From a virus: a stretch of DNA of 60,582 bases. Below are positions 18,151-60,582 of this stretch, one piece after another (the stretch's first letter is position 1; every line of letters starts with the position of its first letter). A program made the translations under genes and the position numbers. Below the pieces are notes generated by a model, which did no database searches, was not told where the DNA came from, and saw only the letters and a program-made list of their open reading frames with translations. The DNA lies in IMG/VR virus record IMGVR_UViG_3300047094_000624, positions 1 to 60,582 of that record; one strand, 5' to 3'.

Positions 18151-18177
18151 TAAACTAGTTTATCTTTTAATTGCCTT

Positions 18178-18846: not shown

Positions 18847-19402
18847 TAATCCTCGCTAAGTTACTCTGAACCGATGCTTTATAGTCAGGAGATATATCCA
18901 TAACATCTAGTTGTTTAAATATTTCTGCTGATTCGTCTTTGCGACCTATCCACCAAGCAGATACTGCTTTTTCAAATAGTAAAACATATTCTCCGTGGTA
19001 ATCAGTATTCATAGGTAAAGGTTCTAATTCTAATTTAGAAAACGTTAATCCTACTTGAGCAAAGGTATAGGCTTCTTGCCATTGACCAGCTCTTTCATGA
19101 AATCTAGATAAAAAGAAATATCCTTCTGGTCTGTTAGGTATATGAGAAATAGCTTGAAGTATGCAATTACTTACAGTGTGAGCTCTATCTTTTTGGTCAT
19201 CAAAACATACTGACATTCTTAATAATGCACTATAAGCAAGTAATGGATGTGATTCATATCCATACTCTGCAGTTCTTAAATAAAAAGAAACAGCAGAAGC
19301 AGTCTGGCTTAATTCATCATATTTTTTAGCAATTTCAAAATTAAGTGCTGGGTTATACATATCATGAGCAGCAGACTTAACTAACTCTTCAATTGAACTC
19401 AT
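18833..19402 (-). CDS. TPR-repeat protein
   Basis: 189 residues of helix pairs with tetratricopeptide spacing (ALNFEIAKKYDELSQTASAV, SFYLRTAEYG, GYFFLSRFHERAGQWQEAY, SAWWIGRKDESAEIFKQL). Such TPR segments are often fused to glycosyltransferases or sit next to them. It overlaps both neighbours by 14 nt, which suggests that the three products work together, perhaps with the TPR as scaffold. Confidence 0.75.
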   Translation of the reverse strand: MSSIEELVKSAAHDMYNPALNFEIAKKYDELSQTASAVSFYLRTAEYGYESHPLLAYSALLRMSVCFDDQKDRAHTVSNCILQAISHIPNRPEGYFFLSRFHERAGQWQEAYTFAQVGLTFSKLELEPLPMNTDYHGEYVLLFEKAVSAWWIGRKDESAEIFKQLDVMDISPDYKASVQSNLARINVAV

Positions 19403-20396: not shown

Positions 20397-20405
20397 AAAA
20401 CAAGT

Positions 20406-20433
20406 CTACCCCACCAGTTTCCTGATGGGGTAG
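20406..20433 (-). terminator. Hairpin between the 1372-residue protein and the glycan cassette
   Basis: CTACCCCA and TGGGGTAG form an 8-bp stem that continues with three inner pairs after one mismatch. On the minus strand it is followed by ACTTGTTTT and, at once, the ATG of the next gene. It looks like an intrinsic terminator placed directly before a coding region. Confidence 0.6.
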
Positions 20434-20452
20434 CGCTCGGGTTATTGAAGGG

Positions 20453-24571: not shown

Positions 24572-24574
24572 GTG

Positions 24575-25081
24575 CTAAAAAGCTCCCATCAATAAATCCG
24601 CCGCTGCGAACGGATAAGTCGTTGTTAAAGTTGTAGTAGTAGGACCCACTAAAACTCTTCCTTCAAAAAGAGCACCTGCTGCAGGAGGTGTTAAGAACAC
24701 CAGATAACCGTCGTCATCTACTCTAATTCCATTTGTTGGCGCCAGTGGGTTGTCCCATGTCACAAACGAGTTCTTGACAATTTGAACTATACCATTCAAG
24801 CTTACCAAGAGTCTTAATGAATTACTAACCGTAACAGGGTCTCCGTTATAGGTTAATAAAAACCTTGTTTCTGTACCATTGAATTGGTTGGATAGACTAT
24901 CTAAGATTTGTATCTCAGAAACTGCGCCTGCAACACCCTGAACACCTTGTAGGCCTTGAAGACCTTGAGGTCCTAGGGTTGTGCTTGTTGCTTGCCAGCC
25001 ATAGCCTGTCCAAGTCCAGGTGCGACTTCCAAAGGTATAGACGTCACCAGGAGCCGGCGAATTGGGAAAATCAATTGGCAT
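24575..25081 (-). CDS. Short collagen-like appendage protein with shared N-terminal module
   Basis: 168 residues. The N-terminus MPIDFPNSPAPGDVYTFG ... WTWTGYGW is the module also found at the start of three larger fibre proteins. Only about five Gly-X-Gln triplets follow (residues 37-52), then a C-terminal beta domain of about 115 residues (FLLTYNGDPVTVSNSLRLLV). It is the minimal member of the family and may be a short fibre or a base piece. Confidence 0.8.
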   Translation of the reverse strand: MPIDFPNSPAPGDVYTFGSRTWTWTGYGWQATSTTLGPQGLQGLQGVQGVAGAVSEIQILDSLSNQFNGTETRFLLTYNGDPVTVSNSLRLLVSLNGIVQIVKNSFVTWDNPLAPTNGIRVDDDGYLVFLTPPAAGALFEGRVLVGPTTTTLTTTYPFAAADLLMGAF

Positions 25082-25145
25082 GTTAATTAACTCTTCTGTA
25101 GAAGGGGTATTTTAAGTATACGAGTTTATTTTAAGAATTATTGTG

Positions 25146-25271
25146 TTATTCTCTTGGAGTTTCATCAGTTCTGTTATAACCAATAACTTCATTAGTTTCA
25201 GCGTCCCTGACTTCTGTAACTCTCAAGCCGTCAATAACCCCTAAATCAACCAGCGTTACTTCTGTAGCCAT
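25146..25271 (-). CDS. Tiny acidic protein of unknown function
   Basis: 41 residues (MATEVTLVDLGVIDGLRVTE..., ending NRTDETPRE). Its ATG overlaps the stop of the upstream fibre gene as TAATG, which supports translation. It may be a small chaperone or base protein for the fibre; this is a guess from position only. Confidence 0.55.
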   Translation of the reverse strand: MATEVTLVDLGVIDGLRVTEVRDAETNEVIGYNRTDETPRE

Positions 25272-26488
25272 TATGAACCTCTAAACCATGGGACTTGGTC
25301 CGAAGGACCGTTTATTGTTGTACTTACTAGTAAATCAGTTTGTCCAGTCCTTACGCCACTTATACGAGGACTTAAAGCTCCAATTACACCAGCATTGTTG
25401 TCTCCAAGAGGAGCGTTGTAAATAGTAGGCATAGTAGCTGCAACAACAATATAAGCAAAAGCATATCTAGAACCCGCAGTTAGTGTGTAACTAGCTGGAT
25501 ATCCACCTGTTGTTGAAAACGAACGTGTGTAAGATGTGTAAAGACTATTAAATAAAGTTGTGTCATCTGCTGTACGAGCTACTAATGTAGCTGTAGTGCC
25601 ATCAAATGTGTAAAGCCCCATTCTTGCTGCAGTACAAGAAGCAGCAGGGATACTTGAGTTACCCATAGTTATTTGGGATATTGTCATTGTTTCTAATGGA
25701 GTAAAGAAAGAAAAAGTTATGTAACCAGAGTAACCGTTGTAGGAATGAAGAACGTTATATCTATCTGGTACATCTATTGTTGAAGATGATTGCCCAACTT
25801 TTGTTTGATAATTAGCTAAAAAGCTAGAACCTAATGTATAAGCAGTTCTTACTGAATTAGGAGTTGCTGCTTTAGTAACACTTGTGCTTGATACAGAGTC
25901 TTCTAATTGAACTGCTCCTACAACACTTGTTGTAGATGCTGGAATACCAATTACAGCAGCAGTAGTAGTTCCTGAATTAGTTATAGGAAAACTTACATCT
26001 ACTGTAGTGTTAAAACCTTGTAGGCCTTGAAACCCTTGAGTTCCTTGTACACCTTGATTAGAAATTCCTTGCGTTCCTTGTAGCCCTGTTAATCCTTGAA
26101 TTCCTGAGAAACCAGATGCGGAAACTTCAACCCAAGCGTTATTAGTTCCATCAAATAAATATGTGTATTCAATTCCAGAGTTTGAATCTACCCAACGGTC
26201 TCCTAGTAAAGGACTTACTGGAGGATTTGCATCAAAATAAATTGCAGCATTCGGTCCTTGATTTCCTTGTAATCCTTGCGCACCAAGTAAGCCATCTGTT
26301 CCTTGAGCTCCTTGGATACCAAGTGGTCCTTGAACACCTTGAAAACCAATACCTATTGAACCCTGTGCACCTGTTGTTCCTTGAACAGTTCCAAGAGCAA
26401 GCCAAACTTCGCCGTTCCATTTCCATGAACGGCCGCTATATGTATAAACGTCATCTAGTAAAGGACTAGACGGAAAACTAATTGGCAA
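25271..26488 (-). CDS. Collagen-like tail fibre protein
   Basis: 405 residues from a TTG start. In order: shared N-terminal module (MPISFPSSPLLDDVYTYSG, residues 1-35), Gly-X-Gln triplets, one bead domain (GDRWVDSNSGIEYTYLFDG), further triplets to about residue 165, a beta/helix linker ending LGSSFLANYQTKVGQ, and a C-terminal domain of about 190 residues (ETMTISQITMGNSSIPAA, ARMGLYTFDGTTATLVA) that probably binds the receptor. No chaperone signature is present. Confidence 0.82.
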   Translation of the reverse strand: MPISFPSSPLLDDVYTYSGRSWKWNGEVWLALGTVQGTTGAQGSIGIGFQGVQGPLGIQGAQGTDGLLGAQGLQGNQGPNAAIYFDANPPVSPLLGDRWVDSNSGIEYTYLFDGTNNAWVEVSASGFSGIQGLTGLQGTQGISNQGVQGTQGFQGLQGFNTTVDVSFPITNSGTTTAAVIGIPASTTSVVGAVQLEDSVSSTSVTKAATPNSVRTAYTLGSSFLANYQTKVGQSSSTIDVPDRYNVLHSYNGYSGYITFSFFTPLETMTISQITMGNSSIPAASCTAARMGLYTFDGTTATLVARTADDTTLFNSLYTSYTRSFSTTGGYPASYTLTAGSRYAFAYIVVAATMPTIYNAPLGDNNAGVIGALSPRISGVRTGQTDLLVSTTINGPSDQVPWFRGS

Positions 26489-26524
26489 TTTTTACTCTTT
26501 TCTTTCTACTAAGTATATTGAATT

Positions 26525-27361
26525 TTATAAACTTAAAACTTTTGGATATCTTATAGAACACCAACCTGAACCCCCGCTACCACCCGTACCAATACCAAAA
26601 AATCTTGAGTATGCACCACCACCACCTGAACCAGAGTTAGTAGCACCTGAAGTTGCTGCAGTAGTGTTTTCATCTCCACCATTACCAGCACCTGAACCAC
26701 CAGAACCACCAGGAGAACCTCGAGAAGCAGCACCTCCTCCGCCTGCTTTACTAGATGTCATAGGTGTCCAACCAGAAGTAATTCTTCCCGTACCACCAGT
26801 TCTACCTGAAGCAGTACCGCCAGCACCGCCTCCTCCTCCGCCTGTGTCAGCTGAAGTGTTATTTGCACCAGCATTACCAAAACCGCCACTTGCTGAACTA
26901 GGTTGATTACCCGCACCAGCACCAGTTCCATAAGCACCCGAACCACCACCAGAGCCGCCTGCGCCACCTGCAACACGGTTAGTGTTATTGTTGTCAGAAT
27001 TTCCTCCACGACCGCCACCTTCAGCGATTAAACTACCAAAAGTTGAATTACCACCTTTGCTATTTGCTCCACCACCAGCTCCAATAACAACAGAATTGTT
27101 TCCTTCTAAAGCAGTAGTAGTTGTGTAAATATAACCACCAGCACCTCCGCCACCACCTCCGCCGCCGCCTGCGCCTGAATCAGAAGATGCACCTCCGCCT
27201 CCGCCGCCAATTAAAATAATTTCAACAGGAACATTTTGGTTAACAGTAAATGTGCTAGTACCAGTAGCGGTAAAAGTGTGATAAACATAATTATCATCTG
27301 ATGTAATAACTCCACCAGTTGAAATTACTTTTCCGCGTCTAACTTGAATACCTATTAACAT
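26525..27361 (-). CDS. Glycine-rich receptor-binding-like protein
   Basis: 278 residues from the ATG at 27361; an in-frame start 21 nt upstream would overlap the previous gene. After a beta strand region (YHTFTATGTSTFTVNQNVPV, EIILIGGGG) most of the protein is Gly/Ala/Ser-rich with runs of Gly and turns such as SSASGGFGNAGAN. This layout matches glycine-rich proteins that pack as polyglycine-II sandwiches in phage adhesins. It ends with GGSGWCSIRYPKV. Confidence 0.75.
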   Translation of the reverse strand: MLIGIQVRRGKVISTGGVITSDDNYVYHTFTATGTSTFTVNQNVPVEIILIGGGGGGASSDSGAGGGGGGGGGAGGYIYTTTTALEGNNSVVIGAGGGANSKGGNSTFGSLIAEGGGRGGNSDNNNTNRVAGGAGGSGGGSGAYGTGAGAGNQPSSASGGFGNAGANNTSADTGGGGGGAGGTASGRTGGTGRITSGWTPMTSSKAGGGGAASRGSPGGSGGSGAGNGGDENTTAATSGATNSGSGGGGAYSRFFGIGTGGSGGSGWCSIRYPKVLSL

Positions 27362-27362
27362 T

Positions 27363-28418
27363 TTAAAGAACCAAATTTCCAAATAAAAGCCATGTATTAG
27401 TATCAGTTTTAAGTAATCCTGCTACAGCATATTGAGCATATAGTTTTAACCTATTACCTTCTGATTGAACAGTAACTCCACCAGTTGCAACAATACTTGT
27501 TTGACCAGTACCTAATTGAGCAATGTTTATCATACTTCCTATAGGAAAAGGCGCAGTTGAATTAAGTGGAATTGTAATCGTATTAGCGCTTGAATTATTT
27601 GTTTGAATAACTGCATCTTTATCAGTTATTGCTAATGTGTAATTAGTAGTAACTCCTGTGTTTTGTAAACTAAATCCTTGAAGAGCATTATTAATTCCTT
27701 GCAATCCTTGAATGCCTTGAATTCCTTGTACGCCTTGTGGGCCTTGAACACCTTGTGGTCCTTGAATGCCTTGCAGTCCTTGTGGACCTTGAATACCCTG
27801 TGTTCCTTGTAGCTGTGCTGCTGGTCCTTGTACGCCTTGTGGGCCTTGAGTACCAACTAAGTTAGGAGTGTACTCAGCCCATACAGTTCCATCATAAATA
27901 GTTAATACACCAGTATTTGTATTTAACCAAGCATCTCCTGAACTTGGAGATACTGGAATTGTAGAAGATATTGTGTAAGTTCCAGGACCTTCAGTTCCTT
28001 GAATACCTTGAGTTCCTGCACCAGTTGCACCTTGAACACCTTGAGTTCCGGAAAAACCTGAAGCACTAACTTCTACCCATGTTAAGTTTGTACCATCGTC
28101 AATAAACGTGTACTCAATACCAGAGTTAGCGTCAACCCATCTATCACCTATTGATGGAGATACAGGTGGTGTTGTTCCAAAACTTATTGCAGCGTTAGGA
28201 CCTTGATTACCTTGTACACCTTGAACTCCTTGTAAACCTAAATCACCTTGAATACCTAATAAACCTTGAACACCCTGTAAACCTTGATTGCCTTGAATAC
28301 CAGCAACACCTTGTGCAGTTCCAACTGCTTTCCAAGAAACACCGTTCCAATACCAGGTGCGCCCGGAGTATGTATAAGTTTGATTTAAAAACGGGGTATT
28401 GGGAAAATCAATTGCCAT
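27363..28418 (-). CDS. Collagen-like fibre protein
   Basis: 351 residues: shared N-terminal module (MAIDFPNTPFLNQTYTYSG), Gly-X-Gln triplets, bead domain (GDRWVDANSGIEYTFIDDG), more triplets, a second bead of the variant type (SGDAWLNTNTGVLTIYDG), about 25 further triplets (ending about residue 250), and a C-terminal beta domain (VTTNYTLAITDKDAVIQTN ... LFGNLVL) that resembles the trimeric tips of short phage fibres. Confidence 0.82.
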   Translation of the reverse strand: MAIDFPNTPFLNQTYTYSGRTWYWNGVSWKAVGTAQGVAGIQGNQGLQGVQGLLGIQGDLGLQGVQGVQGNQGPNAAISFGTTPPVSPSIGDRWVDANSGIEYTFIDDGTNLTWVEVSASGFSGTQGVQGATGAGTQGIQGTEGPGTYTISSTIPVSPSSGDAWLNTNTGVLTIYDGTVWAEYTPNLVGTQGPQGVQGPAAQLQGTQGIQGPQGLQGIQGPQGVQGPQGVQGIQGIQGLQGINNALQGFSLQNTGVTTNYTLAITDKDAVIQTNNSSANTITIPLNSTAPFPIGSMINIAQLGTGQTSIVATGGVTVQSEGNRLKLYAQYAVAGLLKTDTNTWLLFGNLVL

Positions 28419-28429
28419 GGCTCACCTTC

Positions 28430-31366
28430 CTATGCGTTTGTAGTTGTTGTTACGGCACTGCTAGCGTCTGAAAATGCAGTAGTTGCTGCTGAGCCATAGT
28501 GGTTACCAAAAGCTCTCATACCGCTACATGTACCAGTTATTAAAATACCTGATAAAGCGATATTAGAACCTTGTTTAAACCCTCTATTAGCAATTATAGA
28601 GCTGTTAGTTACTGAGTCACTAAAGTAGATATGGTTATGCGTGTTGGTTGTAACTTGGCTTGGGTCTTTAGTTATATTGTTTGCAACCATTACGGCAGAA
28701 GAATTTGTTCTAACATCTATGCAATCTTGAGAAGTGTCTTCAATTCTGTTGTTAGCAATAACCCCATCAACAACAGTAACAAATAGGATTCCATCTCCTA
28801 GATTAGAACCAGTCCTTGTCACATTTTGTATTTGATTATTTGTAACAACTGCTCCATCTACGTTCCAAAGAGCAATAGCGTTAGTTCCATTTGTATTAAG
28901 GATAATGTTATTACTAATAGTTATATTTTGACTTTGTTGAGGAACTGTTTGAGTAGTTGTAGTATCGTCCGCCCCACCATCAAGGCCTATTGCAATTCCT
29001 CCATAGCAAGAGTTAATTGTGTTGTTAGCAATGATTAAATTCTTGTACATTACAAAAGTTCTAATTGCATATTCTGTTAATCCATCAAACTGGTTATTAA
29101 CCATCTTAACGTTGGTATGATAGTAACCAGCTGTATAAGAATGAGTTCCTATACCTGTAGGCCAGGCTGTAGTTCCAGGTGTTCCAGAAGCTCCAAAATA
29201 ACAATTATCAATAACTACATCTTCACAAGGAGTATCATCATAAGTACCAAATGCACCAAACACTGCAGAACTTTTAGCTAAATCTATTTGAATTGCTTCT
29301 GAATAACCGCGTCCTCCAGTATCTAAATAACCTAAGAATCTACAGTTAGTTATTCTCACGTTTTTACTAGAGTTAACTTCTATAGCGTGGTATCCACCAA
29401 CGTTAGTAACAGTTAAATCTTGAATAATAATGTTTTGACCATGACCGATGCTTATACACATAGCAGGTGTAGTTGGGAATGCTGTTGCTCTATTTTCCCA
29501 AATACCTCCGATAATCTTTATATTTGCTTGACCATCGTATCCGGTATAAGAACCGCCACCGTTTCCATTAATAATCATATTGGTGTTGTGTTCTCTAAAC
29601 ATAACAGCTTTTTGAGATAGTAATAAAGTGGTTCCTGTATAAATTTCTAATCTATTTTGTAAATTATATAAACCAGATGGAATATAAACAGTTCCACCAC
29701 CTGCATCTCTAGCAGCATCTAACGCAAGTTGTATTTTTGAAGATGAATCAGATTCACCAGCAACTACTGCATAATCTCTTACAACATCATAAAAGTTAGT
29801 TTGATTTAATCCAGAAAGTCCTGAAATACCTTGAGTTCCATTAAGGCCTTGAGGTCCTTGTAAACCAAATCCTTGTGAACCTTGAGTTCCTTGAGAACCT
29901 GTTGAACCTTGAGTACCGTTTGCTCCTTGACCAGCAAACAATCCAGCAGTACCTTGAATTGATAAACCTTGAATACCTTGCACACCTTGGTCGCCTTGAA
30001 TACCTTGCGTACCTTGAGCAGTTCCGGCATTACCTTGTAAACCTTGAATTCCTAAACCTTGCACACCTTGGTTACCTTGTAATCCCTGTACACCTTGCAC
30101 ACCTTGCGGACCATTAGAACCTTGAGTTCCTTGCCAACCAAATAATCCTTGCAATCCTTGAATACCTTGCAAACCAGATAAGTTTGTGTTGGACTCGAAC
30201 CATTCAAGACCATTCCATACAGAAACAGTTCCGTCATCTTCATTTAACCAAGTATCACCAACTGATGGTGATAGTGGAGGAGTTGGAGATATTGTGTAAG
30301 TTCCTGCGCCTTGTATGCCTTGTGCACCTTGTAATCCTGCACCTGTTGGTCCTTGAATACCTTGTACACCAGAAAAACCTGACGCAGAAGTTTCTACCCA
30401 AGTTTGATTTGTACCGTCATCAATAAATGTGTATTCAATTCCTGTATTTGAATCTACCCATCTATCACCAAGTGAAGGTGATACTGGAGGAGTTGCACCA
30501 AAACTTATTCCTGCGTTAAGACCTTGAAAACCTTGTGTTCCTTGTAAACCTGTTAAGCCTTGTGTTCCACTTGTTCCATCTGTTCCTTGTGCACCAATTG
30601 TTCCCTGAACACCTTGCATTGTTGCATCTGAACCTTGTAAACCTTGCACACCTTGTAAACCTTGTACACCAGAAAAACCAGATGCAGAAGTTTCAACCCA
30701 TGTTTGGTTTGTTCCATCGTCTACATATGTATATTCAATACCAGAATTAGAATCAATCCACCTGTCACCAACCGATGGAGAAACTGGTGGAACAGTATCA
30801 AAAGTAATTAAAGGATTAGAACCTTGTGGTCCTTGAATACCTTGTGCACTACCAGCAATACCTTGTAAACCTTGTATTGCTTCGCCTTGTAAACCTTGTA
30901 TACCTTGTGTTCCTTGCATATTTGCATCGGAACCTTGAATACCTTGAGAACCCTGTGCACCAGAAACACCTTGTGTTCCTGCAAAACCAGATGCGCTAAC
31001 TTCTACCCATGTTTGGTTTGTTCCATCATCAATCCAGGTATATTCAATTCCTGAATTACTATCAACCCAACGGTCTCCAATAAGTGGAGAAACTGGGGGA
31101 GTAGCACCAAAACTTATTGCAGCATTTGGGCCTTGAAAACCTTGTAAACCTTGTGTACCTTGTGCGCCTAATGAACCAGCAACACCGTCAGTTCCTTGCG
31201 TACCTGTTGTTCCCTGCGCACCTGGGTCACCTTGTGAACCTTGGATACCTGTTAAGCCTTGAGCAGTACCTAAAGAGTCCCACGCGGTTCCATTCCAAAT
31301 CCAAGTACGACCAGCCGCTGAATACGTCTGGCCTATGGAAGGAGTTAAAGGAAACCCAAATGGCAT
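28430..31366 (-). CDS. Collagen-like tailspike with parallel beta-helix
   Basis: 978 residues. The N-terminal third to half has the shared module (MPFGFPLTPSIGQTYSAAG), then Gly-X-Gln stretches with three bead domains (GDRWVDSNSGIEYTW) and one variant bead. From about residue 540 a pectate-lyase-like right-handed beta-helix starts (SSKIQLALDAARDAGGGTVYIP, YNLQNRLEIYTGTTLLL) with repeated N-ladder rungs (NIIIQDLTVTNVGGYHAIEV, NVRITNCRF). Such domains bind or cleave host surface polysaccharide; the catalytic residues cannot be read with certainty. Confidence 0.88.
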   Translation of the reverse strand: MPFGFPLTPSIGQTYSAAGRTWIWNGTAWDSLGTAQGLTGIQGSQGDPGAQGTTGTQGTDGVAGSLGAQGTQGLQGFQGPNAAISFGATPPVSPLIGDRWVDSNSGIEYTWIDDGTNQTWVEVSASGFAGTQGVSGAQGSQGIQGSDANMQGTQGIQGLQGEAIQGLQGIAGSAQGIQGPQGSNPLITFDTVPPVSPSVGDRWIDSNSGIEYTYVDDGTNQTWVETSASGFSGVQGLQGVQGLQGSDATMQGVQGTIGAQGTDGTSGTQGLTGLQGTQGFQGLNAGISFGATPPVSPSLGDRWVDSNTGIEYTFIDDGTNQTWVETSASGFSGVQGIQGPTGAGLQGAQGIQGAGTYTISPTPPLSPSVGDTWLNEDDGTVSVWNGLEWFESNTNLSGLQGIQGLQGLFGWQGTQGSNGPQGVQGVQGLQGNQGVQGLGIQGLQGNAGTAQGTQGIQGDQGVQGIQGLSIQGTAGLFAGQGANGTQGSTGSQGTQGSQGFGLQGPQGLNGTQGISGLSGLNQTNFYDVVRDYAVVAGESDSSSKIQLALDAARDAGGGTVYIPSGLYNLQNRLEIYTGTTLLLSQKAVMFREHNTNMIINGNGGGSYTGYDGQANIKIIGGIWENRATAFPTTPAMCISIGHGQNIIIQDLTVTNVGGYHAIEVNSSKNVRITNCRFLGYLDTGGRGYSEAIQIDLAKSSAVFGAFGTYDDTPCEDVVIDNCYFGASGTPGTTAWPTGIGTHSYTAGYYHTNVKMVNNQFDGLTEYAIRTFVMYKNLIIANNTINSCYGGIAIGLDGGADDTTTTQTVPQQSQNITISNNIILNTNGTNAIALWNVDGAVVTNNQIQNVTRTGSNLGDGILFVTVVDGVIANNRIEDTSQDCIDVRTNSSAVMVANNITKDPSQVTTNTHNHIYFSDSVTNSSIIANRGFKQGSNIALSGILITGTCSGMRAFGNHYGSAATTAFSDASSAVTTTTNA

Positions 31367-31409
31367 AAAAATCCTATCTAATGTATTACTAGTTTAGTGT
31401 GTTTTTCTT

Positions 31410-31709
31410 TTATTCACTTGGTCTTACGTCTTCAGATGCAGGTGGATATCCATATTCTGCACGTAATTGGTCATCCCATTCTGCAATTAAACTTTCGTTT
31501 GGAACCCAATCTAATGGTGGGAAAAAGTCATCGTATGCCTCTTCGTATGTGTCGTTGATTCCCGCATACTTTTTACCTGGTTTATCTCTAAAAGTTTCAA
31601 CCCATCTTCCAGGAAAATTAACTATTTCTTCTGAAGAACAAACTATTACTGTAATAACTTTATTGTTTTCATCTAAACAAGCGAAGTACTGCGCATCTTT
31701 TTCTTCCAT
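31410..31709 (-). CDS. Small conserved phage protein next to fibres
   Basis: 99 residues. The start QYFACLDENNKVITVIVCS and the segment DDFFPPLDWVPNESLIAEWD resemble small proteins often found beside tail-fibre genes in aquatic myoviruses. Acidic, probably a single small alpha/beta domain. Function unknown. Confidence 0.65.
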   Translation of the reverse strand: MEEKDAQYFACLDENNKVITVIVCSSEEIVNFPGRWVETFRDKPGKKYAGINDTYEEAYDDFFPPLDWVPNESLIAEWDDQLRAEYGYPPASEDVRPSE

Positions 31710-31716
31710 AAGTCTC

Positions 31717-32640
31717 CTAATTTCTATGTTCCCAAATAACTATTAATCCAGAACCACCTTCAGCTCCGCCTCCGCCTCCACCACCAGTATTAGGTGTTCC
31801 AACAGAGCTACCGTTTCCTCCGCCTCCTGCTCCACCAGTTCCATTTACTGATGCACCAGCACCGCCCCCTCCGCCACCAAATCTTGTAGTAATTGTGTTT
31901 CCTAATGAGTTAACAAATGTTGCAGGAAGTGGTGCTAATAAGTTTGGACCATCAGCCCCATTACCACCAGTATTACCAGACGCATTGCCTCCTTGAGAAG
32001 TAGAACTTCCACCACCAGCTCCGCCGCCGCCTGAACCAGCTCCACCATTAAATCCATAACCCGCGTTCCAAGTTTCACTACCAGATAATCTTCCCGAAGT
32101 TCCAAATCCTGCGTTACTTCCAGAACCACCGCCGGGTCCTCCAAGAAAACCAAATTGACCGTTGGCTCCGCCACCACCGCCACCAATTGAGTTTATTGCT
32201 TTTGCATCTCCTACTGAAGCCCACGCTCCCCAACTAAAAGTGTCATAAGTAGTTGTTGTAAAACGAGTTGGTTCTCCAATATCTCCTTCACCTGGTGCTT
32301 GGCCCCAGTTATAACCAGTAGCGCCACCTGGTCTTCCACCTCTACCTATCCAACAAAAATAAGTGTTAGCATCTCCTATATATAATTTTTTAATGTAATA
32401 AATATTACCTCCGCCACCGCCACCACCATAGTTATTTTGTCCTCCCCCTCCTCCGCCACCAACTAAAAGTAAATCTATGTATAAAACATTTGTTGGTCTA
32501 GTGTATGGAGCATTACTAGTAAAAAATATTGCAGTTCCTAATCCTGCAGCTACATTTGAATATTTTCTTTTTTGTGTACCAAAAGAATTTGTATTATCTA
32601 AAGAATGTAAATAAGAAGTACTTGCGCGTCTAATGCTCAT
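31717..32640 (-). CDS. Glycine-rich adhesin-like protein
   Basis: 307 residues. Beta strands at the N-terminus (AAGLGTAIFFTSNAPYTRPT, VLYIDLLLVGGGGGGG) lead into long Gly-rich stretches with the repeated pattern GGGGGANG/GGPGGGSGS. It ends GGSGLIVIWEHRN. It is a paralog of the downstream-overlapping gene upstream (32637-33581) and of 26525-27361. Overlap ATGA with the upstream gene. Confidence 0.75.
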   Translation of the reverse strand: MSIRRASTSYLHSLDNTNSFGTQKRKYSNVAAGLGTAIFFTSNAPYTRPTNVLYIDLLLVGGGGGGGQNNYGGGGGGGNIYYIKKLYIGDANTYFCWIGRGGRPGGATGYNWGQAPGEGDIGEPTRFTTTTYDTFSWGAWASVGDAKAINSIGGGGGGANGQFGFLGGPGGGSGSNAGFGTSGRLSGSETWNAGYGFNGGAGSGGGGAGGGSSTSQGGNASGNTGGNGADGPNLLAPLPATFVNSLGNTITTRFGGGGGGAGASVNGTGGAGGGGNGSSVGTPNTGGGGGGGAEGGSGLIVIWEHRN

Positions 32641-33581
32641 GATGAAAAATACTGCCTTATTTCTGCTCTACCACTGCCACCAAAAGAAGTAAACCCAGAG
32701 TTGTTTTCAGCCCCATTACCACCATTACCAGTACCAAATGCTCCATTTGCATTTCCACCACCACGTCCACCAGTACCGTAAGTTCCAGAAAAAGGAGTTA
32801 ACAATGCTTTACCAGGCCCAGGATTATTGTTACTGCTAGGAGGATTACCAAAACTTTGTTGAGCAGGTCCTCCTGCACCACCGCCTCCACCTGCAAATCC
32901 TGTACCTGTACCAGTATTAAAACTTCCTGCAGCACCTCTTCCACCTAATCCTGAATACACAATTCTTGTTCCAGAAAAATCTTCTCTAACAACTCCCCAA
33001 TGATTATTTGTTTCTCTATTAGAACCCATACCACCTGAAGTTGCGATAGTCCATGAACCAATTCCTCCACAAGGATGTCCACCACCAGCACCGCCTGGTG
33101 CAATTAATGTTCTTCTTAAATTTGATGAATCAACTCCTGAATAAACACCAAAATTAAAACTAGAAGATGTAGGAGTAAATATTGTTGGCCCGCCAGGTTG
33201 TCCCCATTGATTACAACAGCAGTTGCCTTGAGCTCCGCCAGCGCATCCCGTACCACCGCTTCCAATAATTATGTACCAAGTATCATAATCTCCTACATAA
33301 AATTGATTAACTTGAAATACAGCTCCTCCGCCTCCGCCTCCGGCTGTTCTTGCTCCTCCACCACACCCACCAGAACCACCAGAACCAACTAAAGCAATAT
33401 CAATCCAATGAACATTAATTGGTCGTGACCATGTTGTTGAAGATGTGTATGGAACTACAGAAGATGTTGAAGTTGGAATATAACCAGCGTTAACACGAGA
33501 ATAGCCTGAATCTAAAGTACGACCATTAGCTGCTGAATTAACACCAGATAAGATAGATGCTTGCGCTCTTCTTACTGCCAT
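32637..33581 (-). CDS. Glycine-rich adhesin-like protein, paralog
   Basis: 314 residues with the same plan as its neighbour: N-terminal AVRRAQASILSG, strand region TTWSRPINVHWIDIALVG, then Gly-rich segments, including a cysteine-bearing loop (GCAGGAQGNCCCNQWGQPGG). The tandem pair probably arose by duplication and may give alternative receptor-binding tips. Confidence 0.75.
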   Translation of the reverse strand: MAVRRAQASILSGVNSAANGRTLDSGYSRVNAGYIPTSTSSVVPYTSSTTWSRPINVHWIDIALVGSGGSGGCGGGARTAGGGGGGAVFQVNQFYVGDYDTWYIIIGSGGTGCAGGAQGNCCCNQWGQPGGPTIFTPTSSSFNFGVYSGVDSSNLRRTLIAPGGAGGGHPCGGIGSWTIATSGGMGSNRETNNHWGVVREDFSGTRIVYSGLGGRGAAGSFNTGTGTGFAGGGGGAGGPAQQSFGNPPSSNNNPGPGKALLTPFSGTYGTGGRGGGNANGAFGTGNGGNGAENNSGFTSFGGSGRAEIRQYFSS

Positions 33582-33584
33582 GTG

Positions 33585-33920
33585 TTATGAGATTTCTGTG
33601 CCGAATGCGGAAAATGAAACGCTAGAAGAAGATGAAGAACATCTTAAATATTTTCCAGCTTCCATAGTAATACCAAGAGTTAATGTAACTGTATCGTTTG
33701 CTGGAATAGATGCACCAAAAACAATAAACTCTGATGTTGCTGGAGCAAGTGCTGAAGTTACTGCAAGACGATAAGTTACTGCAGAAGCAGTTTGATTACA
33801 AATAGAAATTGTAGAAACTAACCAAGATTTACCAACACCTACTTGAGCACCAATAGTGTCATAAGTTGAAATTGTTCCTGTAGATGTAACTTGACCTAGG
33901 ACTTTATATGCAACAGCCAT
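33585..33920 (-). CDS. Small beta-sandwich structural protein, paralog of 52227-52562
   Basis: 111 residues. The core SWLVSTISICNQTASAVTYR ... SIPANDTVTLTLGITMEAG ... FGTEIS aligns with the protein at 52227-52562 (SIIAANTSASAVTFNFS ... IAANSVLTMDN ... SGVEIS). This is a common small phage structural family with a jelly-roll look. It probably caps or joins appendage proteins. Confidence 0.72.
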   Translation of the reverse strand: MAVAYKVLGQVTSTGTISTYDTIGAQVGVGKSWLVSTISICNQTASAVTYRLAVTSALAPATSEFIVFGASIPANDTVTLTLGITMEAGKYLRCSSSSSSVSFSAFGTEIS

Positions 33921-35951
33921 TTATGCTCCCATTAGTAGTAGTGGGCTTATTTGATTTAAATCAGTGTCTACCCAAATTGTATCGTAATTAGTGGCAGAAT
34001 TTTTAGCAAGGATTTGACCAATAGAACCACCAACAGGGATTCCACTTAATCCAATAGGTCCTTGATTACCTTGTAGCCCTTGCCCACCTTGCGTTCCACT
34101 ACCTTGGTTTCCTTGTAGTCCTTGTGGGCCTTGCACACCTTGAGCAGCAAAAAAACCATCAAGCCCTTGAATACCAAAATTTCCTTGTATACCTTGAGTT
34201 CCCTGAAGACCATCATTGTTTCCGTATGCTTCAAACCACTCAAGTCCGTCCCAAATATAAATCTTTCCTGTATCAGAATCTAACCAAGTATCTCCAGTTG
34301 CAGGACCTACTGGTGGAGTAGAAGAGATTGTGTAAGTTCCGGGCCCTTCAAAACCTTGCAAGCCTTGCGTACCTTGCATAGTTCCAGCAGGACCTTGTAT
34401 ACCTTGAGAACCAGCAAAACCAGAAGCTGAAACTTCAATCCATGTTTGGTTAGTTCCGTCATCAATCCATGTGTACTCAATACCAGTGTTTGAATCAACC
34501 CATCTATCTCCAATTAACGGAGATACTGGAGGAGTTGGTCCAAATGTAATTGCTGCATTAGGACCCTGTAAACCTTGCGCACCCTGTGCACCATCAGAAC
34601 CTTGTAAACCAAAACCTTGAGCACCTTGTGAACCTTGTGTTCCTTGGAATCCAACACCAGTTAAACCTTGTACACCAAATCCACCTTGTATACCTTGAAT
34701 ACCAGGGTCACCTTGAATACCCTGCAAACCTTGTGCACCAAAACCAGATGGACCTTGAACACCTTGTGCTCCAGAAAAACCACTTGCACTTACTTCAATC
34801 CAAGTTTGATTAGTGCCATCGTCAATCCATGTGTATTCAATTCCACTATTAGAGTCAACCCATCTGTCACCAATTAATGGGCTTGGTGGGGGAGTTGGAC
34901 CAAATGAAATTGCAGCGTTAGGTCCTTGTAAACCTTGAGCGCCTTGTATTGCTTCGCCTTGAATACCTTGCGTACCTTGAATACCTTGTCCAGCAAATGC
35001 ACCAGATATACCTTGTAGACCTTGGTTTCCTTGCGTACCTTGTGCGCCTTGTGAACCAGTACGTCCTTGAATTCCTTGTGCAGCTACTGCGCCAGCAATA
35101 CCTTGATTACCTTGTATTCCAACGCCTTGGATACCTTGTGTACCTTGCCCACCCTGTGTTCCTTGACGACCTTGTAATCCTTGGTTACCTTGTACACCAC
35201 GTTGACCTTGTAAACCTTGATTGCCTTGCAAACCATCTGTACCTTGTGTTCCAAAGTTTCCTTGAATACCACGTTGACCTTGTGCACCTTGCGTTCCTTG
35301 AAAACCTAATGTTCCTTGAAAACCTTGTGAACCTAAAGTTCCTTGCGCACCTTGAGTTCCTTGATTTCCTCTAGAACCTTGTACACCTTGTAAACCTTGA
35401 AATCCTTGTAGCCCACGTTGGCCTTGTATACCTTGTATACCTTGCGAACCAGAACCTGTTGCACCTTGTGCACCATCAGAGCCTTGTAAACCTAATGCAC
35501 CTTGTATTCCTGTGTTACCTTGTAAACCTCTTTGGCCTTGTAGACCTTGATTACCTGGTGGACCAAAATAACCTTGAATACCTTGAGGTCCTTGCATTGA
35601 TGCATCAGAGCCTTGAACACCTTGTATACCTTGAGTGCCTTGCGTTCCTTGTCTTCCTTGTAATCCACGTTCACCTTGTACTCCTTGTGAACCTTGAATT
35701 CCTTGTGGACCTAAATCACCTTGTATACCTTGAGTGCCTTGAAAACCTTGAGAACCTTGATTACCTTGTAAACCTTGGCGGCCTTGTAATCCTTGAGTGC
35801 CTTGAATTCCTTGTGTTCCATTATTAACATTTATAGGAGATTGAACAGATTGATTTATTTGTTGAGAATTAACAGTAATAACAATAGGAGATTGAGGAGT
35901 TACAGTGATGCCTTGAGCACCACACACGCACGGGTCTTGGTTACAAGGCAT
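33921..35951 (-). CDS. Long collagen-like Gly-X-Gln fibre protein
   Basis: 676 residues. The head (about 1-45) is different from the other fibres and contains CNQDPCVCG, which could cross-link a trimer. From about residue 46 to the end there are well over 100 Gly-X-Gln triplets interrupted by two bead domains (GDRWVDSNSGIEYTWIDDG and a near copy) and one variant bead (TGDTWLDSDTGKIYIWDG). It ends with a short non-collagen tail (ILAKNSATNYDTIWVDTDLN). It is the longest fibre shaft in the window. Confidence 0.85.
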   Translation of the reverse strand: MPCNQDPCVCGAQGITVTPQSPIVITVNSQQINQSVQSPINVNNGTQGIQGTQGLQGRQGLQGNQGSQGFQGTQGIQGDLGPQGIQGSQGVQGERGLQGRQGTQGTQGIQGVQGSDASMQGPQGIQGYFGPPGNQGLQGQRGLQGNTGIQGALGLQGSDGAQGATGSGSQGIQGIQGQRGLQGFQGLQGVQGSRGNQGTQGAQGTLGSQGFQGTLGFQGTQGAQGQRGIQGNFGTQGTDGLQGNQGLQGQRGVQGNQGLQGRQGTQGGQGTQGIQGVGIQGNQGIAGAVAAQGIQGRTGSQGAQGTQGNQGLQGISGAFAGQGIQGTQGIQGEAIQGAQGLQGPNAAISFGPTPPPSPLIGDRWVDSNSGIEYTWIDDGTNQTWIEVSASGFSGAQGVQGPSGFGAQGLQGIQGDPGIQGIQGGFGVQGLTGVGFQGTQGSQGAQGFGLQGSDGAQGAQGLQGPNAAITFGPTPPVSPLIGDRWVDSNTGIEYTWIDDGTNQTWIEVSASGFAGSQGIQGPAGTMQGTQGLQGFEGPGTYTISSTPPVGPATGDTWLDSDTGKIYIWDGLEWFEAYGNNDGLQGTQGIQGNFGIQGLDGFFAAQGVQGPQGLQGNQGSGTQGGQGLQGNQGPIGLSGIPVGGSIGQILAKNSATNYDTIWVDTDLNQISPLLLMGA

Positions 35952-37015
35952 TAGTCAAGTGTCACCTGTTGTGTAACAAACACCTGACCTTTAATATAAG
36001 TTTGCTGGAAATCAGGGTCTACAGTGGATGTTGCTTGTAAGTCCCAGAAAGCTCTTCTAGGTAAGTATTCAGTTTCAGAATTAGTAAGTTCAATTTTAAC
36101 AACACTTAAAGCATCAGTTTGAGATATTTTAGTTACTGTAAATGTTCCATATAATGCTGGAGCATTAGGATAAGTTCTAATTTGTGCTTTAAAGTTTAAG
36201 TTAGTTGTATTAAATGGAAAGTTAAATGTACATTCATATGAATCTCCTTGATAAAGAACAATGTCATAATTTTGAGCAGTAGATGGTGTTGGCGTTCTAC
36301 CATTAAGGTCATTTGTAATATAAACACGTTCTGGTCTTCTACCATCATCAATTTCTTGTGACATATATACAGGAACAAGTTTATTTGTAAGACGAGATAC
36401 TCTACGCAGTATTCCTATTTCTAAACGCCATAGACCAATATTTAATGCATGACACAGTTGATTGTATTGTTCCCAACGTTGATTAATAGTTTGCATTAAT
36501 TGTTGGTATCTTTCAGAACGAGGAATTGTTACTCCATCTGGAGCAAATATATTAATATCAAATGCAGCGTCAGTTGCTAATGCCCATAAGGCTTCAATAA
36601 CAGCAAGAATTGCTACTGGGTATTCCTCTACTGCTGGAATAGATGCTAAAGTTATAGCACTTCCAGTGCCATCAGTCCTATTATGAGAATGTTGAATTAC
36701 TGCAGTATTTATAAAAATACAAAGGTCATCATCTAAAAAGTATCTATTGGTTACGCCTGTTACGTTCACACTGGCTCCATTAGCAGGAGCTACAGCAAAA
36801 GTAATAATTCCAGTTTTTTGTTCAATGGTATATCCAGCAGGATATGGAATAGGAGTTCCAGCAACCAACACTGTGAGGTTGTCTAATTCAACAGGTTTAG
36901 CGTTTACGTAGAATCTAGTCTTCGTTCCATCACCAGTGGATGAATATACGAATTGCTTAGCCTCGTCACCGAGTTCTAGACGGACCCTAGAAAGTAGGTC
37001 TGCTAGTAGGGCCAC
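35951..37015 (-). CDS. Probable neck / head-tail adaptor protein
   Basis: 354 residues from a GTG start with GGAG. The N-terminus LADLLSRVRLELGDEAKQFV followed by GDGTKTRFYVNAKPVE is typical of phage adaptor or neck proteins, and the C-terminal part (VLYQGDSYECTFNFPFNTTN, LPRRAFWDLQ) looks like an Ig-type or BppU-like beta domain. It lies between the capsid group and the fibre genes, and so may form the collar to which fibres attach. Confidence 0.68.
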   Translation of the reverse strand: MALLADLLSRVRLELGDEAKQFVYSSTGDGTKTRFYVNAKPVELDNLTVLVAGTPIPYPAGYTIEQKTGIITFAVAPANGASVNVTGVTNRYFLDDDLCIFINTAVIQHSHNRTDGTGSAITLASIPAVEEYPVAILAVIEALWALATDAAFDINIFAPDGVTIPRSERYQQLMQTINQRWEQYNQLCHALNIGLWRLEIGILRRVSRLTNKLVPVYMSQEIDDGRRPERVYITNDLNGRTPTPSTAQNYDIVLYQGDSYECTFNFPFNTTNLNFKAQIRTYPNAPALYGTFTVTKISQTDALSVVKIELTNSETEYLPRRAFWDLQATSTVDPDFQQTYIKGQVFVTQQVTLD

Positions 37016-43792: not shown

Positions 43793-43836
43793 TTTTTCCA
43801 ATTCTTTAACACGATAGTTTAAGTTTAACCAATATG

Positions 43837-43909
43837 CTGTCCTGATTGGACTCGAACCAATAACCACTCGATTAACAGTCGAGTGCTCTGCCAATTGAGC
43901 TACAGGACA
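43837..43909 (-). tRNA. tRNA-Asn (anticodon GTT)
   Basis: Full cloverleaf on the minus strand: acceptor TGTCCTG / CAGGACA (7 bp), D arm GCTC-AATTGGCA-GAGC, anticodon stem CTCGA / TCGAG around CTGTTAA, variable TGGTT, T arm ATTGG-TTCGAGT-CCAAT, discriminator G. CCA is not encoded. It is just upstream of the terminase gene. Confidence 0.93.
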
Positions 43910-43915
43910 TCAGAG

Positions 43916-43987
43916 AGCCTCGAGTCAGGATTGAACTGACGACCTTCCGCTTACAAGGCGGATGCACTACCGCTGTGCTATCGAGGC
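43916..43987 (-). tRNA. tRNA-Thr (anticodon TGT)
   Basis: Full cloverleaf on the minus strand: acceptor GCCTCGA / TCGAGGC (7 bp), D arm GCAC-AGCGGTA-GTGC, anticodon stem TCCGC / GCGGA around CTTGTAA, variable AGGTC, T arm GTCAG-TTCAATC-CTGAC, discriminator T. CCA is not encoded. It would read ACA, a codon much used in the AT-rich structural genes. Confidence 0.93.
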
Positions 43988-47305: not shown

Positions 47306-47821
47306 TTGCTTAATATCAGAAAGATAACACACTCATGTGTGTCATTGTTGGTAGTAGCTGCATTTATAGTTACACCGGCAATAGCATCTCCGCCAACAGA
47401 ACCTAAATCTGTAACTATGGCGGCTACAACAGAACCTAAAACAACAGTTAAATTAACTCGTGTTACAGTTTCTGTAAGTAGAACAGATGCAAGAGAAGCA
47501 ATCATTAGCCCATATGCAAAATTCTTTGATGCAGAAGCCTTAGCGTTTTTAATGGTTCATGCAGAAGGTTGGGACTTGCAAGAATGGAAATGTTTGCGTA
47601 ATGTATGGAACAAAGAAAGTCGTTTTAATCCTAAAGCTCAGAATAAAAATTCAACAGCTTATGGTATCCCACAGTTTTTAGATTCAACTTGGGAAGCTTA
47701 CGGATTTAAAAAGACTTCTGATGCCAAAGAACAAATAATAGCCGGACTAGCTTATATCGATAAAAGATACGGGAGCGCATGTAATGCATGGAGTCACTGG
47801 GAGCGAAAACGCTGGTATTGA
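47306..47821 (+). CDS. Secreted lytic transglycosylase-like protein
   Basis: 171 residues from a TTG start with a strong GAGAGGAG site. A signal peptide is clear: basic NIRKITHS, hydrophobic SLLVVAAFIVTPAIA, cleavage near AIAS. The C-terminal half (residues about 95-171) has the SLT/Rpf-like pattern CLRNVWNKESRFNP with likely catalytic Glu 104, AYGIPQFLDSTWEAYGF and a pair of cysteines. It is exported by itself, unlike the M23 enzyme, and is divergent from the lysis genes. It may serve lysis, superinfection control or wall loosening. Confidence 0.88.
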   Translation: MLNIRKITHSCVSLLVVAAFIVTPAIASPPTEPKSVTMAATTEPKTTVKLTRVTVSVSRTDAREAIISPYAKFFDAEALAFLMVHAEGWDLQEWKCLRNVWNKESRFNPKAQNKNSTAYGIPQFLDSTWEAYGFKKTSDAKEQIIAGLAYIDKRYGSACNAWSHWERKRWY

Positions 47822-48074
47822 TAAATTTAAAGCACCTTTTTTTGATGGGTCACAACCATGTGCCCAAACAGACCCTGATTTGTTTTTTCCAAACAATGCA
47901 GCGGAAGGCGCAATAAATATTAAATATACTAGAAAAATTTGTAAATCCTGTGAATTCAAATCTCACTGTCTTGAATACGCACTAACAACTCCATTAATAA
48001 TGGGAGTATGGGCTGGTACCACAGAACACGACCGAGTAGTTATACGAAGACAAAGACGAACTTCTAAACGTTAA
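47784..48074 (+). CDS. WhiB-family transcriptional regulator
   Basis: 96 residues. The four iron-sulfur ligands are Cys 26, 53, 56 and 62 (pattern C...CxxC x5 C), followed by EYALTTPLIMGVWAGTT, the conserved WhiB turn, and a basic C-terminus (RVVIRRQRRTSKR) for DNA contact. WhiB proteins occur only in Actinobacteria and their phages and act through the main sigma factor. It overlaps the transglycosylase gene by 38 nt, so both are made from one transcript, ended by the terminator at 48081. Confidence 0.93.
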   Translation: MHGVTGSENAGIDKFKAPFFDGSQPCAQTDPDLFFPNNAAEGAINIKYTRKICKSCEFKSHCLEYALTTPLIMGVWAGTTEHDRVVIRRQRRTSKR

Positions 48075-56801: not shown

Positions 56802-57218
56802 TTACTTTTTACTTGCCTCGTACGCTTCACGCTTTGCTTTTAAGTCAGCAAAGTCTTTCTTTTTAGTACCACCATCATAACCCCAAGCATAGCCTGCGTC
56901 AATTAGGTGTTGGTTAAAAGAAGTCTCACTACCATCTATAAATAGATGACCTAGGATACGACCGTATTTCTCCGTAGAGTCTGGCAGCTCGGTCTTAATA
57001 ACAATCCTTTTAATATTGTCTAGGGAATGCTTTAGATAGTCTTTAACAGCTAACCCTAATTCTTTTTCAAATTTATCAATAGTGCGACTTTCTGGGGTAT
57101 CAATACCGGCTAAGCGAACTCTTTTGGTTAATGAAACATCAAATCCTAAATCAATGTCAACGTCTATAGTATCGCCGTCTACTACCTTGATAACTTTCTT
57201 TACATTATATTCGTACAT
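56802..57218 (-). CDS. Staphylococcal-nuclease-like protein
   Basis: 138 residues. VIKVVDGDTIDVDIDLGF, RVRLAGIDTPESRTID, TEKYGRILGHLFIDG and NQHLIDAGYAWGYDGG are the motifs of the thermonuclease (SNase) family, with the Asp and Glu that bind calcium and the Arg of the active site in KYGRI. No signal peptide, so it acts inside the cell. It overlaps the HNH gene as TAATG. Confidence 0.9.
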   Translation of the reverse strand: MYEYNVKKVIKVVDGDTIDVDIDLGFDVSLTKRVRLAGIDTPESRTIDKFEKELGLAVKDYLKHSLDNIKRIVIKTELPDSTEKYGRILGHLFIDGSETSFNQHLIDAGYAWGYDGGTKKKDFADLKAKREAYEASKK

Positions 57219-58849: not shown

Positions 58850-58939
58850 ATGTCAGAAGAAGAATTAAATAAGATATTAGAGCTTTTAGGCAAGGCTATG
58901 AAAGAGAGACTGGAGGAATCCCAAGCATGGGACAAGTAA
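58850..58939 (+). CDS. Tiny helical protein
   Basis: 29 residues (MSEEELNKILELLGKAMKER...). An amphipathic helix, with an AGGT site too near the ATG. It overlaps the next gene by 13 nt. The end of this gene carries the CTGGAGGA site of the next one. Could be a leader peptide. Confidence 0.5.
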   Translation: MSEEELNKILELLGKAMKERLEESQAWDK

Positions 58940-59088
58940 CCCCCAACGCATTCTGCCCACATTGCAACAAAAGCACAAAAATGTTATCCCCCAAAGAAGT
59001 TGTCAAAGAGAAATTCACTATGGTCTTAGGTACTTGCCAAGATTGTGGAAACCGCTCATTCATTATCAAATCGGCTACTGCCCACTAA
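58927..59088 (+). CDS. Small zinc-ribbon protein
   Basis: 53 residues. FCPHCNKSTKML and GTCQDCGNRSF supply two Cys pairs. A good GGAGGA site precedes the ATG. It is the first of several zinc-ribbon proteins on the plus strand. Confidence 0.75.
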   Translation: MGQVTPNAFCPHCNKSTKMLSPKEVVKEKFTMVLGTCQDCGNRSFIIKSATAH

Positions 59089-59164
59089 ATTAACCTTTTA
59101 GTCATCCGTAAAGCCTGGCGGGCATGTCCGATTTGTCCGTATTTAAGGGTGGGGGGTATGAGAC

Positions 59165-59178
59165 CGAACATGTGTTCG
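59165..59178. promoter_or_regulatory. LexA (SOS) box match
   Basis: CGAACATGTGTTCG is CGAAC-N4-GTTCG, the consensus bound by LexA of Gram-positive bacteria and Actinobacteria. The adjacent TATAAC could be a -10 box. Binding by host LexA would tie the operon to DNA damage. Confidence 0.65.
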
Positions 59179-59222
59179 ATTATAACAATTTGATAACGTC
59201 TCTAGTATTGTCGGCTAGTGGG

Positions 59223-59237
59223 TGTATCTTAGATACA
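59223..59237. promoter_or_regulatory. Perfect inverted repeat, probable operator
   Basis: TGTATCT-T-AGATACA: two 7-bp arms around one base. This is typical of a dimeric repressor site. It overlaps a possible -10 box (TAGATA). Confidence 0.5.
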
Positions 59238-59257
59238 TGAAGCAAAAGTTGTTTCAT
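59237..59257. repeat. Imperfect inverted repeat before the first ORF
   Basis: ATGAAGCAA and TTGTTTCAT pair at 8 of 9 positions around AAG. It may be an operator or an RNA hairpin in the leader of the 59272 gene. Confidence 0.4.
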
Positions 59258-59271
59258 AGTTAGGGGTTAGC

Positions 59272-59478
59272 ATGACATATATTCCGTATCAAACCCGTAT
59301 GCTCATGGCAGGTGACAGCCTACCATGTCCGTATTGTTCCACACCATTAACCATTGAACAATATCAAGATGGTTATCGTGTGGGGTTACCTGAACACTTA
59401 GAGTCTGGCGAGTGCCATGTCAATAGTGTTAATGAGGCAATTGAGGAACGCAAGTTTGACCCGACTGGGGGTGTGTAA
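59272..59478 (+). CDS. Small zinc-binding protein
   Basis: 68 residues. LPCPYCSTPLTIEQYQDG and ESGECHVNS provide three Cys and a His. First gene after the control region, with GGGG upstream. TAATG overlap with the next gene. Confidence 0.72.
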   Translation: MTYIPYQTRMLMAGDSLPCPYCSTPLTIEQYQDGYRVGLPEHLESGECHVNSVNEAIEERKFDPTGGV

Positions 59479-59660
59479 TGCCTGTTACATATCTCCACGA
59501 CGATATCCTCGAATGTCCTAATTGTCTACACACTTGGGACTATGACGCACGCAATAGTGGCGAGCACGAGATTGTCACTATCAATTGCCCACAATGCAAT
59601 GAACCTAATCAGTATGAGACTGACGAGGTTGATATCCCTTACGGAGACGACTACCTATGA
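59478..59660 (+). CDS. Small zinc-ribbon protein
   Basis: 60 residues. LECPNCLHTWDYDARN and INCPQCNEPNQYET form a zinc ribbon; the tail is acidic (DEVDIPYGDDYL). Coupled on both sides by overlaps. Confidence 0.75.
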   Translation: MPVTYLHDDILECPNCLHTWDYDARNSGEHEIVTINCPQCNEPNQYETDEVDIPYGDDYL

Positions 59661-59772: not shown

Positions 59773-60036
59773 ATGACTAAAAGAATAAACGCCCGACTAG
59801 CAATGAATGAGATAGTACACAAGCGTGAATTTAACGCTGGTAATTTCTGGGGCAAGTGGTCAGACGACGAGGGACAAGGCGAATACCAAGTCTATTCATA
59901 TCGTCAATGTATCGGCACTTATTACTTAGCCGATGAAAAGTGGATACTAGATACCCAAAAGTATTCAATGACTACAAGCAAGCACCAAAACTATCTCAAG
60001 CGTGCAGTTAACACGCCAGACTTGGCGCTGGTATGA
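59773..60036 (+). CDS. Small early protein of unknown function
   Basis: 87 residues. FNAGNFWGKWSDDEGQGEYQ, VYSYRQCIGTYYLADEKWIL and TQKYSMTTSKHQNYLKRAV resemble a small beta domain often seen in early regions of actinophages. A site AAAGGACAA precedes the ATG. ATGA overlap with the next gene. Confidence 0.7.
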   Translation: MTKRINARLAMNEIVHKREFNAGNFWGKWSDDEGQGEYQVYSYRQCIGTYYLADEKWILDTQKYSMTTSKHQNYLKRAVNTPDLALV

Positions 60037-60221
60037 ACTCACAATGTAAGCAATGTGGAAGTGAGGGCGACCTACTAGTCGCCCTCACTAAACACAAGAT
60101 ATGTGGCAAGTGCACACGCATTAGACACAAGCAAGCAATGGGTGAGATTGATAACCTTATTGCTAATCTAAACAAGCAAGGCGAATTGTTAGACCAACTC
60201 TATGGAAAGGACAACAAGTGA
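60033..60221 (+). CDS. Small zinc-ribbon protein with helical tail
   Basis: 62 residues. QCKQCGSEGDLL and KICGKCTRIRHK form the zinc site; the C-terminal helix (MGEIDNLIANLNKQGELLDQ) may form a dimer. Function unknown. Confidence 0.72.
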   Translation: MNSQCKQCGSEGDLLVALTKHKICGKCTRIRHKQAMGEIDNLIANLNKQGELLDQLYGKDNK

Positions 60222-60358
60222 AAACCAAGGAAGTAATAGATGTATTCGAGTGCGAGGGTTGTAAGACCAACCTAGATATAGATGATGTAGTCGGTCGTAT
60301 TACATACATGAATGGACTCTATGGGTTCTGGTGCTTTACATGTTGGAGTAACCGATGA
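60218..60358 (+). CDS. Small zinc-ribbon protein
   Basis: 46 residues from a GTG start (GTGA overlap with the upstream stop, AAAGGACAA upstream). FECEGCKTNLDIDDV and FWCFTCWSNR provide two Cys pairs. Confidence 0.7.
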   Translation: MKTKEVIDVFECEGCKTNLDIDDVVGRITYMNGLYGFWCFTCWSNR

Positions 60359-60534
60359 ACTACGCACCTGACACAATCGAGCGCATGCTACATATTGTGC
60401 AAGATAATATGGAAGCTGACCCAAGGTTACAGATAGTATCTAACTTGTTAGATGACTTACTACTACGAGGCGTGATAGACATAATCACACCAGGTGGTAT
60501 AGTTGATAACGAAATAGAAAAAGGTTTCTGCTAA
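60355..60534 (+). CDS. Small helical protein
   Basis: 59 residues (MNYAPDTIERMLHIVQDNME ... GVIDIITPGGIVDNEIEKGFC). Last gene of the operon, ATGA overlap with the upstream gene. No family recognised. Confidence 0.65.
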   Translation: MNYAPDTIERMLHIVQDNMEADPRLQIVSNLLDDLLLRGVIDIITPGGIVDNEIEKGFC

Positions 60535-60551
60535 CCCCGGAAAACAACAAG

Positions 60552-60575
60552 GCCGCCCTCACGGGCGGCTTTTTT
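60552..60575 (+). terminator. Intrinsic terminator of the rightward operon
   Basis: Stem GCCGCCC / GGGCGGC (7 bp, loop TCAC) followed by six T. It is strong and well placed, 18 nt after the last stop. Confidence 0.9.
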
Positions 60576-60582
60576 GTTTGTG

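Follow-up and report, generated by a model that had tools for sequence, protein, structure and literature searches.

A LexA-type box set at a preferred spacing beside an MtrA-like direct repeat in control regions of apparently virulent, putative actinophages

The window, by which we mean the whole 60,582-base stretch that was analysed (IMG/VR virus record IMGVR_UViG_3300047094_000624), contains at 59165-59178 a LexA-type box, CGAACATGTGTTCG, followed after 3 bp by an MtrA-like box, ATAACAATTTGATAACGTC, an 11-bp direct repeat of the form RTAAC-N6-RTAAC (59182-59200, plus strand). We put at roughly 55% the probability that this palindrome is a host LexA site within a LexA-MtrA composite control module of apparently virulent actinophages, in which LexA acts as a brake on activation by MtrA. 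The module would read, in order, LexA box, 3 bp, MtrA direct repeat, sigma-70-type promoter, and then the small genes of a rightward cluster; host MtrA bound to the direct repeat would activate the promoter, the adjoining LexA would hamper MtrA and hold transcription back in the undamaged cell, and cleavage of LexA after DNA damage, or an SOS response triggered by the infection itself, would release the operon. The broader proposal, that virulent actinophages of many lineages time an early-type gene cluster by DNA damage (through LexA) together with MtrA, we would give a little under an even chance.

Both the sequence and the position of the box are as given in an earlier note made from the letters alone, and that note was also right that a chance match would be rare: base composition predicts about 0.03 perfect CGAAC-N4-GTTCG sites per window, and the search for further copies that it had proposed finds no other perfect one anywhere in the 60,582 bases. 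If up to two mismatches are allowed, the window holds 9 matches where 10.5 are expected, so that only the perfect copy stands out. The ATGT spacer fits the A..T spacer form CGAACAnnTGTTCG of actinobacterial lexA promoters (motif in PMC2248561), the box as a whole has the actinobacterial LexA form CGAACANNTGTTCG, and the same palindrome is found both in those lexA promoters (PMC2248561) and in the LexA regulon of Streptomyces venezuelae (PMC9380542). Since the site has the actinobacterial form, is kept in relatives, and recurs in actinophages, and since the phage records searched (see below) yielded neither a LexA/S24 gene nor a tyrosine integrase gene, the identification of CGAACATGTGTTCG as a host-type LexA box is supported. 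That a single 14-bp site expected 0.03 times per window is a chance match without function is the most improbable explanation we considered: the conservation pattern and the recurrence both speak against it, and the control scans in practice refute it.

The window phage is contractile-tailed and encodes a tail sheath, a portal of the SPP1 type, and a whiB-type gene (47784-48074, plus strand; Pfam PF02467, E 2.5e-15). As whiB is taken as an actinophage marker (PMC10202952), the host is most likely an actinobacterium, and the low G+C content of the window (39%) would fit a freshwater actinobacterial lineage. The portal is 56% identical to those of Streptomyces BRock-group phages, whose genomes measure 112-116 kb, its relatives in IMG/VR reach 97-98 kb, and the window is very probably an incomplete genome. 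It also carries several tail-fibre-like genes (16730-36000) with collagen-like GLQGxQG repeats, adjacent tRNA-Asn and tRNA-Thr genes (43836-43987), and a nuclease-like gene (56802-57218) that over about 190 bases is 69% identical in its DNA to cyanophage nucleases, a possible case of transfer between phages of different hosts.

The box sits in a 181-bp gap (59091-59271) ahead of a gene at 59272. The surroundings are not simply, as had been claimed, gene-free DNA ahead of the rightward operon: a pair of small genes on the plus strand (58850-58939 and 58929-59090) lies upstream of the gap and is kept in the closest relative, L084. The first gene after the control region (59272-59478, plus strand) encodes a 68-residue product with a CPYC motif that is 77% identical in L084 and matched no known family; the remaining small genes of the operon (59478-59660, 59773-60036, 60033-60221, 60218-60358, and 60355-60534, all plus strand) have open reading frames kept in L084, and a predicted intrinsic terminator (60549-60572, plus strand) would end the operon. 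The likely mRNA leader contains a hairpin (59236-59258, plus strand) whose stem forms in both available sequences, window and L084, though the paired bases differ. A comparison with Rfam gave no match. Just beyond the end of the window (60549-60582), L083:5300-5380 carries a long inverted repeat, GTTTGTGTTGGGGCTATGGGGCTG ... CAGCCCCATAGCCCCAACACAAAC; since contig 3300042448_001862 breaks at this point just as the window does, the inverted repeat may have stopped assembly.

The consensus for Corynebacterium glutamicum MtrA is (A/G)TAACAATttn(A/G)TAACAAT, an 8-bp direct repeat with a 3-bp linker, and MtrA activates when bound upstream of the -35 element (PMC3353115). The window repeat agrees with 15 of the 18 informative positions of this consensus, which is that of C. 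glutamicum and may not be that of the host; matches with a score of 15 are expected by chance 0.6 times per window, so the repeat taken singly is not significant and draws its weight from its place and its recurrence. The TATAAC at 59181-59186, correctly noticed earlier as adjoining the box, is better read as half of this conserved direct repeat, and we have dropped the -10 hexamer as its main reading. A core promoter probably lies downstream of the repeat, at about 59202-59234 (plus strand), as judged by comparison with other composites, several of which have a clear TTGACA-N17/18-TANNNT there; the candidate -35 element is near 59202-59211 and the candidate -10 element is TATCTT (59225-59230) or TTAGAT (59229-59234). 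The window promoter is weak, and a consensus promoter scan of the window did not pick it up. No recognisable -10/-35 promoter overlaps the box, which precedes the inferred start by about 70 bp, an unusual place for a LexA repressor site. With the box 3 bp upstream of the MtrA-like repeat and the likely promoter downstream, plain blocking of RNA polymerase is not the mechanism that first suggests itself; thus, of the SOS control suggested in the earlier note, the host-type LexA box is supported, whereas simple SOS repression exerted over an overlapping promoter is not.

The region is present in three IMG/VR contigs, two of them near-identical and the third, L084, about 91% identical. The L084 box, CGAACACCTGTTCG, has both arms intact and an altered spacer. 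Only 4 substitutions separate window and L084 over 59095-59201, and three of these hit degenerate positions (two bases of N4 and the R of RTAAC), whereas divergence reaches 14% and 18% in the flanking genes and 21% in the leader; the substitution pattern reads as that of protein-binding sites. Immediately upstream of the box, a 70-bp block (59095-59164) that includes a G-rich run, AAGGGTGGGGGGT, and is partly common to L225, is better conserved than the surrounding genes, with 1 substitution against L084 in 59095-59169. It is very improbable that the conserved bases of the region are kept because they are coding. In the window a short open reading frame of 38 codons (59124-59240) does span the site, and 9 of 24 independent composites likewise leave a frame open across the element; the other 15 of the 24 have no frame spanning it, a count that largely refutes the coding explanation, and the upstream block, at 1 substitution per 75 bases, does not share the drift of the neighbouring genes.

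In a more distant group (L101/L225) the box is kept and the gap to the repeat is 11 bp longer (14 bp), and in other family members the direct repeat is kept and the LexA box is absent. That near relatives might lack the site and yet retain the promoter had been named in advance as what would refute the earlier reading; the outcome is mixed, the site being retained in the closest relative and in L101/L225, and missing elsewhere from family members that retain the repeat. Among DUF932-linked relatives, 3 of 20 distinct repeats have a LexA box with 0 mismatches and the other 17 have 5-7 mismatches, so that the box is either present or wholly absent, not degraded, and amounts to a separate addition to a repeat in wider use. 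In many relatives the direct repeat stands with no LexA box beside it, and in the family of the window phage it occurs in several copies per genome. The next gene past the window end in L083 (L083:5380-5487), which we take to encode a DUF932-like protein, has its own MtrA-like repeat, ATTATAACGATTCGATAACATC, and no LexA box; L108 (record G067, 6585-7494) packs six MtrA-like repeats into about 900 bp, arranged as inverted pairs on opposite strands; and L256, L245, and L266 show rows of several CGAACA..TGTTCG-like boxes in other phages.

The composite recurs widely. i) A scan of IMG/VR for the box followed by TATAAC at 2 bp returned 49 stretches; in 25 of 33 independent contexts a second RTAAC, not demanded by the pattern, lies exactly 11 bp after the first, and 24 of these 25 contexts also have the A..T spacer. 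The few matches without the second half of the repeat look mostly like coding chance matches. ii) The LexA box followed within 30 bp by RTAAC-N6-RTAAC was found in 53 stretches, as against 4, all from one family, when the repeat was lengthened to 14 bp (N9), and 2 when the LexA arms were swapped. iii) A 3-bp gap separates box and repeat in 28 of 35 independent contexts, and the unit "LexA box, 3 bp, RTAAC-N6-RTAAC" is found in 24-28 independent phage contexts. iv) In the reverse order, repeat and then LexA box, 40 stretches were found; no gap is favoured in these, and some of the repeats are DnaA-like. The scattered gaps indicate that the two motifs co-occur widely in phage control regions and form a rigid unit in one order only. 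v) Across 24 independent composites the repeat agrees with 13-18 of the 18 positions of the C. glutamicum MtrA consensus, and positions left free in the search also agree with RTAACAATttnRTAACAAT. The composites stand at the head of small rightward gene clusters, sometimes facing away from an apparent terminase gene, and in several phages two or three boxes lie close together. whiB is present in 11 of 28 composite-bearing records as against 0 of 5 chance-match records, which suggests that the composite-bearing contigs are actinophages. The strict composite pattern had no match in 257 Gb of bacterial and archaeal genomes, and BLAST found no convincing match among named phages and plasmids, Corynebacterium phage Darwin having a repeat-like stretch and no LexA box. 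Two CGAAC-N4-GTTCG sites outside the window were counted as chance, one at L083:5772, in frame within coding sequence, and one in L086, where there is no such context.

The rigid 3-bp gap, found in one order only, would also fit a module of opposite sign, in which LexA and MtrA cooperate as neighbours on the DNA, LexA helping activation in the healthy cell and DNA damage turning the operon down. The second largest gap group is that at 14 bp, one helical turn more, and takes in the DUF932-sharing relatives of the window phage. Two further homologous loci have gaps of 8 and 19, so that the gaps of related loci differ by 11 bp in both pairs (3 vs 14; 8 vs 19). Such shifts of about one helical turn tentatively favour contact between LexA and MtrA, slender as two locus pairs are, and with 14 bp between their sites the two proteins are less likely simply to overlap; LexA is reported to act as an activator in Streptomyces mobaraensis (PMC11157053). 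Nevertheless, single cases at gaps of 12, 17, and 30 do not fit the helical-turn pattern, and activation by LexA is rare. We think cooperation unlikely, although it is the alternative to be taken most seriously, and prefer the reading in which LexA restrains MtrA.

Which proteins bind the two sites can be approached through the gene content of the phages. No OmpR-type DNA-binding domain was detected in 30 related or composite-bearing phage records, many of them incomplete, and the same records contain neither S24/LexA (PF00717) nor tyrosine integrase (PF00589) domains, the integrase search covering the tyrosine class. The earlier statement that the phage has no visible lysogeny genes therefore holds for these records, with the proviso that many of them, like the window, are incomplete. 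As LexA/S24 and OmpR-type proteins were found in none of the 30, the binders are likely to be host LexA and host MtrA. It is improbable that the palindrome is bound instead by a phage-encoded regulator sharing the LexA sequence, and the direct repeat by another phage protein: several direct repeats per genome would be expected of a phage-specific regulator too, and most small phage genes belong to no known family, but the elements agree with the actinobacterial LexA and C. glutamicum MtrA consensus sequences even at positions not demanded by the searches, the module occurs in many independent phage contexts, and the 30 records offer no OmpR-type or S24 candidate. Slightly less probable again is a mixed assignment, in which the palindrome is a LexA box and the direct repeat the site of another OmpR-type host regulator such as the nitrogen regulator GlnR. 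Streptomyces GlnR and MtrA sites are alike, and RTAAC-N6-RTAAC resembles the half-site spacing of GlnR; the free positions, however, fit the A/T-rich MtrA consensus of C. glutamicum.

The usual view is that phages consult LexA solely when leaving lysogeny. If the LexA-MtrA reading is correct, these phages would read the state of the host through two signals, DNA damage (LexA) and the cell-cycle and envelope regulator MtrA, and lytic infection of abundant actinobacteria would be tuned by host damage and cell-cycle state. The composite also provides a sequence signature for spotting actinobacterial phages in metagenomes.

The nearest named relatives of the window phage by portal, the BRock group (Borockvirus and relatives), show neither a perfect LexA box nor a direct repeat of this kind in the four genomes searched. 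We found no description of an MtrA box in a phage, nor of a fixed LexA and MtrA-like unit in apparently virulent phages, in the literature searched, which included few subscription journals. With the C. glutamicum MtrA box the phage repeat shares the 11-bp direct repeat, the RTAAC half-sites, and an A/T-rich linker, and it differs in being fixed beside a LexA box. With the actinobacterial LexA (SOS) box, tCGAAC-N4-GNNCGa / TCGAACAnnTGTTCGA, the window site shares the ten fixed bases, the A..T spacer, and a place in a control region; it differs in having C rather than T as its left flank, in lying upstream of a direct repeat rather than over the promoter, and in belonging to a phage in which no lysogeny gene is known. 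Among temperate phages, promoters with host LexA sites are already on record: such sites lie in a promoter region of Bacillus phage GIL01 and of others that host LexA represses, and in GIL01 LexA holds the lysogenic promoter with the help of gp7 (PMC4551915). Here, unlike GIL01, the records searched show no tyrosine integrase and no S24/LexA repressor, and an activator-like site adjoins the box.
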